From positions 372,001 through 436,000 of the forward strand of contig CASFDA010000013.1 in assembly GCA_949293335.1 (NCBI GenBank): a DNA stretch of 64,000 nucleotides. The letters run 5' to 3'. Below, in pieces: positions 29,688-33,748 of this stretch. Numbering within the stretch: position 1 is the stretch's first letter; each line of letters starts with the position of its first letter. The notes under the pieces were generated by a model. The model ran no database searches. It was given only the letters and a program-made list of their open reading frames with translations, and was not told where the DNA came from. The translations under genes were made by a program, and so were the position numbers. This stretch comes from an uncultured Spirochaetales bacterium (GTDB lineage: Bacteria; Spirochaetota; Spirochaetia; Sphaerochaetales; Sphaerochaetaceae).

Positions 29688-30147
29688 ATCTCCTGATACT
29701 CTTGATCTTCTGGCTTTCCAGCATGAATGTGCAAGGTCCGTCATTTATCGATGAAACAAGCATTCCAGAACCGAAAATCCCCTTCTCTACCTTATAGCCC
29801 AGAGAACGGAGGTATTCGATAGCTTTTTCATAAAGACTTTCTGCTTTTCCAGGATTCAGGCATGTCTCGAATCCTGGCCGGTTACCTTTATAAATATCAC
29901 TGGAAAGCGTGAACTGGCTGATAAAGAGGATGTCTCCCCCACTTTCTTTCAGTGTAAGATTCATCTTCTTCCCTTCATCTTCGAAGATGCGGAGTTTCAG
30001 AAGCTTGTCAAGAAATGGAATAAGGATATCTTCCTGATCTGTAAAATCCAGTCCGAAATAGCATAGGATACCCTTTCCAATCTCTCCGACAGTCTCTCCT
30101 TCAACAGTGACAGAAGCAGAAATTACCCTCTGGACAAGTAACTTCAC
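29686..30147 (-). CDS. dtd: D-aminoacyl-tRNA deacylase
   Basis: A 153-residue enzyme that removes D-amino acids (and glycine from tRNA-Ala) from charged tRNA. It begins MKLLVQRVISASVTVEGETV, and has the catalytic-site segments LFISQFTLSSD (SQxTL motif) and SSINDGPCTFMLES (usually NDGPVTL, the cis-proline motif). Length is normal. It overlaps rpe by 4 bp. Confidence 0.95.
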   Translation of the reverse strand: MKLLVQRVISASVTVEGETVGEIGKGILCYFGLDFTDQEDILIPFLDKLLKLRIFEDEGKKMNLTLKESGGDILFISQFTLSSDIYKGNRPGFETCLNPGKAESLYEKAIEYLRSLGYKVEKGIFGSGMLVSSINDGPCTFMLESQKIKSIRR

Positions 30148-30818
30148 CTTGCTGCCTCAGCAAGCTCAGAAAGTGTTTCAACAAACTCTTTCGGGTTTTC
30201 TGCATTAAAGAAGGCAGAACCGGTAACGACCATGTCAATACCAGCTTTTGCGACATCACTGATGGTTTTCTCGCTTATACCTCCATCAATATTTATGAGG
30301 AATTCGTATCCCTCTGTGTCCCTTATCTCACAGAGTTCAGAGATCTTGTTTGTAGACTCCTTGATGAACTTCTGTCCTCCGAAACCAGGGTTGACACTCA
30401 TAATGAGCACATAATCGACGAAAGGGAGAAGCGCAGAGATTGCAGAGACAGGTGTGCCAGGATTGATTGCTATTCCCGCCTGGAGACCAAGTTCCTTTAT
30501 CTCGGAAATATCCTTGTGTGCATGTCTGGTTGCCTCCTGATGTATCGTGATGATATCACTTCCTGCATCAGCAAACGCCTTGATATACCGTCCAGGCTCC
30601 TCAATCATGAGATGAACATCAAAAATAAGGTCTGTATGTTTCCTCATGTCCTTTATGAACTTCGGGCCGAACGTGATGTTCGGAACGAATGAACCATCCA
30701 TGACATCTACATGGACATAGTCTGTTCCACTGTCCTCAATCTTCTTCAACTCCTCAGAGATTGCTGAAAAATCTGCAGAGAGAATAGAAGGTGCTACTAG
30801 CAAAGATCTGTTTTCCAT
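30144..30818 (-). CDS. rpe: Ribulose-phosphate 3-epimerase
   Basis: A 224-residue TIM-barrel enzyme of the pentose phosphate pathway. Signatures: LLVAPSILSADF, DYVHVDVMDGSFVPNITFGP, FDVHLMIEEP, VLIMSVNPGFGGQKFI and INIDGGISEKTI. The ATG at 30818 gives the normal N-terminus; a longer frame upstream adds an unlikely hydrophobic run. TATAAT lies only 9 bp before this ATG on the minus strand, so the mRNA may be nearly leaderless. It leads the rpe-dtd-recA-scpA-scpB-rluB-cmk-rpsA series and is divergent from greA. Confidence 0.93.
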   Translation of the reverse strand: MENRSLLVAPSILSADFSAISEELKKIEDSGTDYVHVDVMDGSFVPNITFGPKFIKDMRKHTDLIFDVHLMIEEPGRYIKAFADAGSDIITIHQEATRHAHKDISEIKELGLQAGIAINPGTPVSAISALLPFVDYVLIMSVNPGFGGQKFIKESTNKISELCEIRDTEGYEFLINIDGGISEKTISDVAKAGIDMVVTGSAFFNAENPKEFVETLSELAEAAR

Positions 30819-30890
30819 ACTTTTGGAATTATAAACAAATGGAAGAGAGAATGGAAGAAAACAAAAAGAGAAACGAAAGCCTTGTGCCCT

Positions 30891-30921
30891 TTGTTTTTCC
30901 ATTTTTCTGTGTTAATATAAT
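30891..30921 (+). promoter_or_regulatory. Promoter candidate for greA
   Basis: A perfect TATAAT is at 30916-30921, with a poor TTGTTT 19 bp upstream. The transcript would begin near 30928, placing the following hairpin in a leader of about 94 nt. Confidence 0.45.
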
Positions 30922-30943
30922 TACAAGAGTTAAAAACAACATT

Positions 30944-30978
30944 CCGAGCGGGTGAGATACTCCGCCCGGTTTTGTTTT
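30944..30978 (+). terminator. Terminator-like hairpin in the greA leader (attenuator candidate)
   Basis: CCGAGCGGG, loop TGAGATAC, and TCCGCCCGG form 8 of 9 pairs, followed by TTTTGTTTT. No plus-strand gene lies upstream, so it has nothing to terminate except greA itself. A second small stem, CCCT/AGGG at 31003-31014, covers part of the greA ribosome binding site. Confidence 0.65.
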
Positions 30979-31021
30979 ATCTTGAAAGGATAAGAAATTT
31001 TTCCCTCAGGAGGGTTTTGAT

Positions 31022-33748
31022 ATGCTCGATTTGAAAATGAGGATGCAGGATGAGAAAAGTCTGGGAAAGAACCCTGCGATCAACTATAAAGTCAGCACGT
31101 TCCAAGAAATAGATGGTGAACTATTTAATAAACGGACAACTACGAACAAGCTGATGAAAATCAGGAAGGAGGCAAAGAAACTCCTCAATGAACACGAATC
31201 TCTTGTTCTCAGATATATAAATGGTCGCATAAAGCTGAATCTGAATCCACATGAATTCAACATGGATCTCAACAATACATTGCTTGCATTCTATGATGCG
31301 AGGAACTGGGATGTCGTTAGATTCATTGCAGAGATGATAATCAGCAAGAGTTCCAATCCGGTTGCATACCGTGTGCTTGGTGATGTTGAGCATGAGGATG
31401 GCAACGATGGGAAGATGTGGTCCCTTTACGAACACTATGCAGTATCAGATGCAAAGGACAGGGAAATAATAATCCGTGTTGGAAATCACATAGCAGAATC
31501 AGGTGATCTGAAAAAGGCTGCGTCTTTCCTGGAAAGGGGATTGCTAAGACAGGTGCTTCCGGAAGACAGGGAAAGGGCTGTTGCTGTCTTTTCTCGTCTC
31601 ATTGAGATCGGCAAGACCGATTTCCCTTTCCTCAACAGATATATCATAGAGTCCAAAGATAAGGACAGTGAAACGGCAAAGAGATGCGGAAAGCTTCTGA
31701 AGGAGAATCTTGATAAAGCATATAATGCCCTGAAGGCGGAAGGTGGCAGGGACAGCGAGGAGGATAAGACACTATCAGATATCATTCTCGTACTTTCAGA
31801 GATCCTTTCCTCCTCTCCTGAAGATTCAGAGACACGGGAGATGCTGATCACAGCTCTGAAAGAAAGGTACAAGAAAGCGCCAAGGCTTTCTGAATGCCTG
31901 AGAAAATATGATATTCGTCGTTCGAGTGATGTCCTTTCTTCCCTTTCTCTCTTTGAAAAGGAGATTTCCTATACAAAGGGTTCTTTCTTCATTCACAAGA
32001 GGACAGGAAAGGTTGGTATCATCTCTGATATCTCGAAAGACAGTGTAATGATAAAGTACACAGGAAATGAAGCCCCGACAAAACTTACTTTCCAGGTTGC
32101 GTTTGAGACGATCGAACCTATTACAAAGCAGCATATAAAAGCAATCAAGAAGGGTGTTCCGCCACAGAAAATCAAGGAGAGAATCCTCTCCGAAGGGGGA
32201 ATTGCCTGGTTGACAAAGACACTTCTCTATTCCCTTGCAGATCCGGAAGGCACGCTTCTGAAGGACATGAAGGCGGAAATGGTTCCTTCTGTACTCTCTG
32301 AAAGTGAATGGAAGGGAATAAGCGAGAAAGTAAAGGCAGAACTGAAAAGTGATCCATACATCAGGGCACTTCCTGGCGCAACTGAAAGGTATATGCTTTC
32401 CCCCTACCCGATGACTGAAGAGGAAAAACAGCTTTCATATTTCCTTGCTACAACAGATTTTGACGAGAAGCTCAACTGCTTCATACGTTCTATCAAAAGC
32501 AAAGATGTTGACAACACAGCAGATAGCACTGTGAACATGATGAGCTACTTTGCTGAGATCGTTAACGAAGGAAAAGCTAGTTCTTACCAGATCATCTCCT
32601 CTTCTCTTGCCCTGGACATGACTGGCGATGAGAGCGACATGAACATCGAAGTAAAGAAGAGCTTTGACGAGATCTATTCCATTTATAGTGAACAGGACAT
32701 GATCGATGCTTTCCGTAAATTGCCGAATGTGGATATGAAAAAGGCATTTGTTGACAAGGTTTCGATCATTGATGAGGATCCAGAAGAGATCCTTTCGGAG
32801 CTGGTCCAGTATTATCCTTCATATGTTCCGCAGAAACTGAGGAAACTTTCTGATGGAAGTGCATATTTCAATTACCTGAAGAAGGTATTTGACTTTCCAC
32901 GCCAGAACACAGATGTATTCCTCTATTTCATGGATACTGTATCTTCTGCAGACCTGAAGGAAATTGGATTTGATGAGAAAAAACTCATCAAGACAGAGCT
33001 TACTGTACTCTCTTATGTCTCCAGGATGGATGAAGGAGCAGAGAAGAGAAAGAGGATGCAGAGTCTTCATAAGTCACTTATCGATGGAAAGAAGGCAGAA
33101 AAGTATATCTCTCTTGCAAGTGATGAGGATAAGGATGATCTCAAGACTGTGATCCTTTATAACGATGGCCTTGAGACTGAGGAGAAGAATGCGCTGAGGA
33201 AAAAACTTTATCAGCGCTGGCCAGATCTTGCCCCATCAGCAAACAAGGAAGAGGTCAAGGTGGTACGTACCCTTTCTGGTTTCCTCTGTCTGCGGTCCTC
33301 ATATGACAGGAAACAGCAGGAACTCAAGGAAATACAGACTGTGGACATGCCGAATATCCTCAAGGAGATCAATACAGCCCGAGAACTCGGAGATCTGAGG
33401 GAGAACAGCGAATATCAGTATGCCAAGGAACATAAGAGGGAACTCGAGAGGAGAATTGGAGAACTCAATAGCGATCTCAATACGGTACGCATTGTCAGAA
33501 AGGAGGATGTCCTTCCCGACTACATCGGATTTGGGACAAAAGTAATCCTCGAAGACAAGGTAAATGGCGGAGAGTGCACTTATACTTTCCTTGGACGCTG
33601 GGAAAGTGATCCAGAGAAAGGAATAATTGACTTCAATGCCCCACTTGGCAAGGCGCTTGTCAATCATAAAGTCGGTGATGATGTGAAGTTTGAAATCAAT
33701 GGCAGAGCATATGACTATGTAGTCAAATCGATTGATGTTGTCATCTGA
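31022..33748 (+). CDS. greA: Transcript-cleavage factor GreA, spirochaete-type long form
   Basis: A 908-residue protein. The last 155 or so residues are a full GreA: a coiled coil with the acidic tip in ARELGDLRENSEYQYAKEHK (about 786-803), then the FKBP-like domain IGFGTKVILEDKVNGGE to the end. GreA rescues backtracked RNA polymerase by stimulating cleavage. The N-terminal 750 residues are helical, with a small beta segment at about 315-385 (KGSFFIHKRTGKVGIISDIS) resembling a CarD-type tudor fold. Long GreA proteins of this size are known in Borrelia and Treponema. The ATG is preceded by CAGGAGGG. Confidence 0.9.
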   Translation: MLDLKMRMQDEKSLGKNPAINYKVSTFQEIDGELFNKRTTTNKLMKIRKEAKKLLNEHESLVLRYINGRIKLNLNPHEFNMDLNNTLLAFYDARNWDVVRFIAEMIISKSSNPVAYRVLGDVEHEDGNDGKMWSLYEHYAVSDAKDREIIIRVGNHIAESGDLKKAASFLERGLLRQVLPEDRERAVAVFSRLIEIGKTDFPFLNRYIIESKDKDSETAKRCGKLLKENLDKAYNALKAEGGRDSEEDKTLSDIILVLSEILSSSPEDSETREMLITALKERYKKAPRLSECLRKYDIRRSSDVLSSLSLFEKEISYTKGSFFIHKRTGKVGIISDISKDSVMIKYTGNEAPTKLTFQVAFETIEPITKQHIKAIKKGVPPQKIKERILSEGGIAWLTKTLLYSLADPEGTLLKDMKAEMVPSVLSESEWKGISEKVKAELKSDPYIRALPGATERYMLSPYPMTEEEKQLSYFLATTDFDEKLNCFIRSIKSKDVDNTADSTVNMMSYFAEIVNEGKASSYQIISSSLALDMTGDESDMNIEVKKSFDEIYSIYSEQDMIDAFRKLPNVDMKKAFVDKVSIIDEDPEEILSELVQYYPSYVPQKLRKLSDGSAYFNYLKKVFDFPRQNTDVFLYFMDTVSSADLKEIGFDEKKLIKTELTVLSYVSRMDEGAEKRKRMQSLHKSLIDGKKAEKYISLASDEDKDDLKTVILYNDGLETEEKNALRKKLYQRWPDLAPSANKEEVKVVRTLSGFLCLRSSYDRKQQELKEIQTVDMPNILKEINTARELGDLRENSEYQYAKEHKRELERRIGELNSDLNTVRIVRKEDVLPDYIGFGTKVILEDKVNGGECTYTFLGRWESDPEKGIIDFNAPLGKALVNHKVGDDVKFEINGRAYDYVVKSIDVVI

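Follow-up and report, generated by a model that had tools for sequence, protein, structure and literature searches.

Why should a gene with no plus-strand neighbour upstream be preceded by what looks like an intrinsic terminator? The question is raised by the leader of greA in a 64,000-nucleotide (nt) stretch of contig CASFDA010000013.1 (the window), which comes from an uncultured Spirochaetales bacterium of the family Sphaerochaetaceae. As the initial annotation had noted, no plus-strand gene lies directly upstream, and a hairpin with 8 of 9 pairs and a T-tract, located between a predicted promoter and greA, can be read directly from the letters; the long reading frames on the upstream side are divergent and lie on the minus strand. 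This terminator-like RNA hairpin lies on the same strand as greA, is conserved, and in the genomes searched is restricted to greA. We consider it to be a conserved weak intrinsic terminator that probably serves as a transcription attenuator (probability about 0.8). The features concerned are the following:

30891..30918, plus strand: predicted greA promoter, TTGTTT (30891-30896), 16 nt, extended -10 TG-T-TAATAT (30910-30918)
~30925, plus strand: predicted greA +1, deduced from this promoter; 30928 if TATAAT (30916-30921) is used
30944..30969, plus strand: putative attenuator hairpin, arms 30944-30952 and 30961-30969, A 30947 mismatched with C 30966
30970..30978, plus strand: T-tract TTTTGTTTT, where a leader RNA of ~51-54 nt is predicted to end
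31008..31013, plus strand: greA Shine-Dalgarno AGGAGG
31022..33748, plus strand: greA, encoding a spirochaete-type long GreA of 908 amino acids (aa)

Conservation of the hairpin

Without comparison, the hairpin in the window is only mildly unusual. CCGAGCGGG (30944-30952) pairs with TCCGCCCGG (30961-30969) at 8 of 9 positions, one G.T being counted, and the fourth position from the base of the stem is an A.C mismatch. A simple scan returns 2 (overlapping) terminator-like sites versus 0.9 (standard deviation 0.9) in shuffled sequences, and the fold of the 45-nt stretch 30938-30982 has z = -2.2. A second small stem, CCCT/AGGG, had been proposed to cover the Shine-Dalgarno. Its letters exist (31003-31006 and 31011-31014, stem 31003-31014); the stem is unused in the minimum-energy fold of the window leader, no stem of this type over the Shine-Dalgarno was found in the closest relative (L002), and the proposal has been dropped, the stem not being conserved.

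Comparison is decisive: in most of the family members examined the hairpin is kept nearly letter for letter, while GreA drops to ~30% identity; between the window protein and full-length homologues from other genera of the family, identity is only 26-32%. The greA gene was located in 46 of the 48 genus genomes and 129 of the 139 family genomes, a search at the level of the order returning the same 139. From the genus, 44 of the 46 leaders were taken, G028 and G032 being left out since greA is cut at its 5' end there; a further 60 came from the 83 other family genomes that have greA, selected so that the 5' end was intact and a range of genera was covered. A strict motif, C[C/T]G[A/G]GC-N-G[C/T][C/T/G]CGG within 330 nt before greA, defined without any T criterion, is present in 44/44 genus leaders and 91/104 family leaders, representing 14 of 18 genera. 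The six-letter arms, CCGAGC and GCCCGG, stand 8-35 nt apart in these 91 leaders, and the 10 nt directly 3' of the stem hold at least 6 T in 90 of them and at least 7 T in 89. The carrier genomes are classed as Sphaerochaeta, Sphaerochaetaceae, Spirochaetales and Candidatus Ornithospirochaeta.

Pairing was assessed in an alignment (A1) of 73 distinct leaders; of the 77 distinct cores available, the four whose loops were longest had been set aside. Changes on both sides affect 32 cells of the nine-pair stem, a value reached in none of 500 shuffles, and 87.7% of the cells are paired versus 22.7-39.2% when the arms are slid. Columns 17-19 with 31-33, the inner pairs, account for the covariation, while the basal pairs hardly vary; the loop and the 5' flank are not conserved. 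The mismatch is retained as well. In the alignment, column pair 14-36 is A.C or otherwise non-standard in 66/73 leaders and A-U in 7/73; over all 91 leaders the position reads A/C in 82, A/T in 8 and A/G in 1, and two further genomes have G-C (G057) and G.U (G051). Reading the A as G would raise the predicted stability by 6.9 kcal/mol on average over the 82 leaders.

Ordinary terminators of the same organisms served as a control, the same finder being applied to the greA leaders and to the terminators behind greA in 30 genus genomes. The leader hairpin was detected in 28 of the 30, and its 12 basal stem letters have an identity of 1.00; the 22 terminators detected behind greA reach 0.39. The longest T runs of the two sets overlap.

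Leader layout and genomic range

The initial annotation had set the hairpin between TATAAT and the greA start. This hexamer is indeed present at 30916-30921, and the alignment to relatives favours instead the extended -10 at 30910-30918: relatives carry TTGCCA-17-TGnTATATT at the same place, where it lies ahead of the hairpin in most genus leaders. In 81 of 94 leaders the scoring, which favours TG, selected an extended -10. Counted from predicted rather than mapped starts, the distance from +1 to the hairpin in these 94 leaders is 4-60 nt (median 18.5), and it is only 4-8 nt in 27 of them. Because of these 27, an upstream aptamer or antiterminator, judged from predicted start sites, cannot be a general component of these leaders. 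A leader peptide was rejected as there is no room for it before the hairpin, and no further search for one was made. Neither a riboswitch nor a T-box is indicated: the window leader attains the gathering score of no Rfam family, the best E value of 0.93 being at chance level. A terminator serving the divergent strand was also rejected, as there is no matching A-tract on the other side.

In a clade of five genomes (L037-L041), GACAATGTA-like letters lie 5' of the hairpin, ~60-110 nt before greA. By eye, they could pair with TACATTGTC-like letters immediately 5' of the Shine-Dalgarno. The changes between genomes look compensatory, and the resulting stem would enclose the terminator hairpin.

Is the element confined to greA? 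A pattern scan of the 48 genus genomes found the greA site in nearly all of them, together with scattered looser matches. A covariance model (R1) was searched in 394 genomes of the class. It matches in 76 of 92 family genomes, in 75 of them at greA, and its sole match in the genome of the window at E <= 0.05 is the element itself (G000:C13:402934-402993, E = 1.2e-8; this sequence is part of the model). Matches in 47 of 302 other class genomes are weak (best E = 7.9e-5); 40 of these 47 genomes were followed, greA was found in 37, and no R1 match adjoins it. In a scan of 84,980 species genomes, 56 stretches were recovered, 31 with greA directly downstream; of the others, one is from a spirochaete at a contig edge and 24 lack greA, nearly all belonging to unrelated taxa. 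A regulon was considered and rejected: the two further exact CCGAGCAG..CTGCCCGG matches of the pattern scan sit inside a metG-like reading frame. Those R1 matches of family genomes away from greA that were examined (L200-L203) proved to have a different stem (CAGAGCAGG), to be a plain terminator or to be without a T-tract. No convincing second copy was found in the genomes searched.

Outside the family, 36 greA leaders of other spirochaete families were compared, and none holds the motif; 33 belong to genomes that had been picked because R1 matched somewhere in them. In most of these 36, greA follows closely on another reading frame. The element would thus appear to be the mark of a lineage whose greA has a promoter to itself, in an order of events that we infer. 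In L190, L169, L172 and L167, greA lies 13-33 nt behind a conserved gene of ~300 codons, which ends in NHYFWLIDHY-like residues and whose product appears TPR-like by eye; this linkage is absent at the window locus.

The remaining features of the locus concern the flanking proteins. In the 908-aa GreA, residues 758-904 hold the Gre N and C domains, and the ~750-residue N-terminal extension (gene 31022-33748) has no Pfam match at E <= 0.001. The divergent neighbour is:

30144..30818, minus strand: rpe (ribulose-phosphate 3-epimerase), Pfam PF00834, E = 2.8e-77

From the placement of its promoter, rpe likely starts at 30818 and not at 30902; the listed frame of 252 aa from 30902 is over-long. On the minus strand (window 30816-30833), TATAAT lies only 9 nt before the likely ATG, so that the rpe mRNA may be almost leaderless. 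A similar placement is seen by eye in several relatives.

Probable attenuation and its alternatives

One hallmark of an attenuator of this type, a G+C-rich stem with a U-tract directly behind it, located in the leader and on the strand of the gene, is present here, and a conserved promoter-like sequence lies upstream. Family-wide conservation and the control with downstream terminators strongly support the intrinsic-terminator or attenuator interpretation that had been made from the window. We infer that termination occurs in the cell with partial readthrough, that a short RNA is released and that the GreA level is controlled in this way. RNA polymerase would start ~18 nt upstream, transcribe the hairpin and the T-tract, and then either stop, releasing an RNA of ~35-60 nt, or read through into greA. 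The A.C mismatch, three pairs above the base, would keep the stem from clean closure, and readthrough would for this reason be partial. In this manner, the element would limit the amount of GreA, a rescue factor of RNA polymerase, that is made.

By analogy with GraL of E. coli, for which genetics shows such feedback, the likeliest regulator would be GreA, working on polymerase that has paused or backtracked at the T-tract; this tentative assignment falls somewhat short of even odds. Bolder, and doubtful, is the idea that the polymerase is the sensor. The element would then be a sequence-specific pause-and-terminate site in which the mismatch stalls stem closure, and termination would be set by how fast GreA clears backtracked polymerase: a factor-free feedback loop, arisen separately from GraL in the lineage whose greA is the only gene behind its promoter.

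Several observations weigh against attenuation. The fold of the whole window leader is unremarkable (z = -0.85). Leader stems have a mean energy of -10.8 kcal/mol versus -13.7 for the terminators behind greA, so that termination could be poor. Interruption of the T-tract, considered as a special form of tuning, was rejected as it is common in the control terminators too. Near-invariant letters would not be needed by a pure fixed divider. The strict motif is missing from 13/104 family leaders. Seven of these (L062, L080, L089, L091, L094, L096, L104) have diverged forms by eye, the start of L094 being mis-called; in L049 the start is mis-called and pair four is G-C; and no form of the motif is visible by eye in L088, L099 and L101-L103. 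Finally, in E. coli the feedback by GreA has been observed in vivo only, and an unknown accessory factor is suspected (PMC6829880).

Attenuation has two further variants. A constitutive partial terminator could fix a low GreA level without any sensing. It is simple, it agrees with a mismatch retained despite its cost of 6.9 kcal/mol, and there is no room for an upstream sensor in the 27/94 leaders with a predicted 5' leader of <=8 nt; the unregulated terminators of the same genomes lose their letters, however (0.39 identity), and this variant appears somewhat unlikely. Less likely still is an RNA-binding regulator for which the near-invariant CCGAGC/GCCCGG stem, A.C mismatch included, would be the binding site, and which would alter termination or the fate of the mRNA. 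The letters of the basal stem, and not just its pairing, are conserved, and the A.C position is retained in 82/91 leaders, but the element occurs on greA only, no candidate protein was identified, and A-U (8/91), A.G (1) and G-C or G.U (two more genomes) indicate that the mismatch is not absolute.

Readings other than attenuation fare worse. Protection of greA mRNA from decay by a 5' stem-loop, with an incidental T-tract, would suit the 27/94 leaders in which the hairpin starts 4-8 nt after the predicted start; it is improbable in view of the T-rich tract directly 3' in 90/91 leaders, needless for protection, and of the retention of a mismatch that weakens the stem. That the released leader is mainly a trans-acting small RNA is more improbable again: GraL of E. 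coli has a trans activity too (PMC6829880), but here the loop and 5' flank are not conserved in the alignment, so that there is no conserved seed. Least credible is a DNA operator (inverted repeat) for a repressor downstream of the promoter. The two near-invariant half sites would suit it, but the six-letter arms stand 8-35 nt apart, a variation that a dimeric repressor could hardly bridge, the T-tract is on one side only, and the inner letters covary.

Relation to known greA leaders

We read the element as one that may work like E. coli GraL while being unrelated to it in sequence. According to the GraL study (PMC6829880), GreA represses greA via the leader, only if catalytically active; the terminator is preceded by 19 nt; and swapping the arms abolished most of the repression by GreA. 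The GraL-like layout that had been suggested holds, with a short leader and an intrinsic terminator at a comparable distance from the start (~18 nt here, predicted) directly before greA; in GraL, too, the letters of the hairpin matter, as the arm swap shows. The two differ in that they share no sequence: the E. coli leader, compared by eye, lacks the CCGAGC/GCCCGG arms, which bears out the initial annotation on this point. The stem described here is moreover near-invariant across a family and carries an A.C mismatch.

Premature terminators before greA were also reported by Naville and Gautheret in 2010 (PMC2965389), in whose list of attenuated families greA is seventh. The present element resembles their greA and rnk leaders in this respect, and differs from a greA leader with an antiterminator in that 27 leaders have no room for one upstream. 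The main text of that paper contains neither 'spirochaet' nor 'Treponema', and the literature searched holds no description of this spirochaete element, some queries having been diluted as 'grea' also matches 'great'.

Reports of greA attenuation cover several phyla, yet the means by which GreA controls termination in E. coli are described as unsolved (PMC6829880). The present leader, unrelated to GraL, from another phylum and near-invariant in its letters, shows what evolution retains, and the family provides a natural series of mutants at a single pair: A.C, A-U, G-C and G.U. This would make the question testable both with purified components and in Sphaerochaeta that can be cultured.
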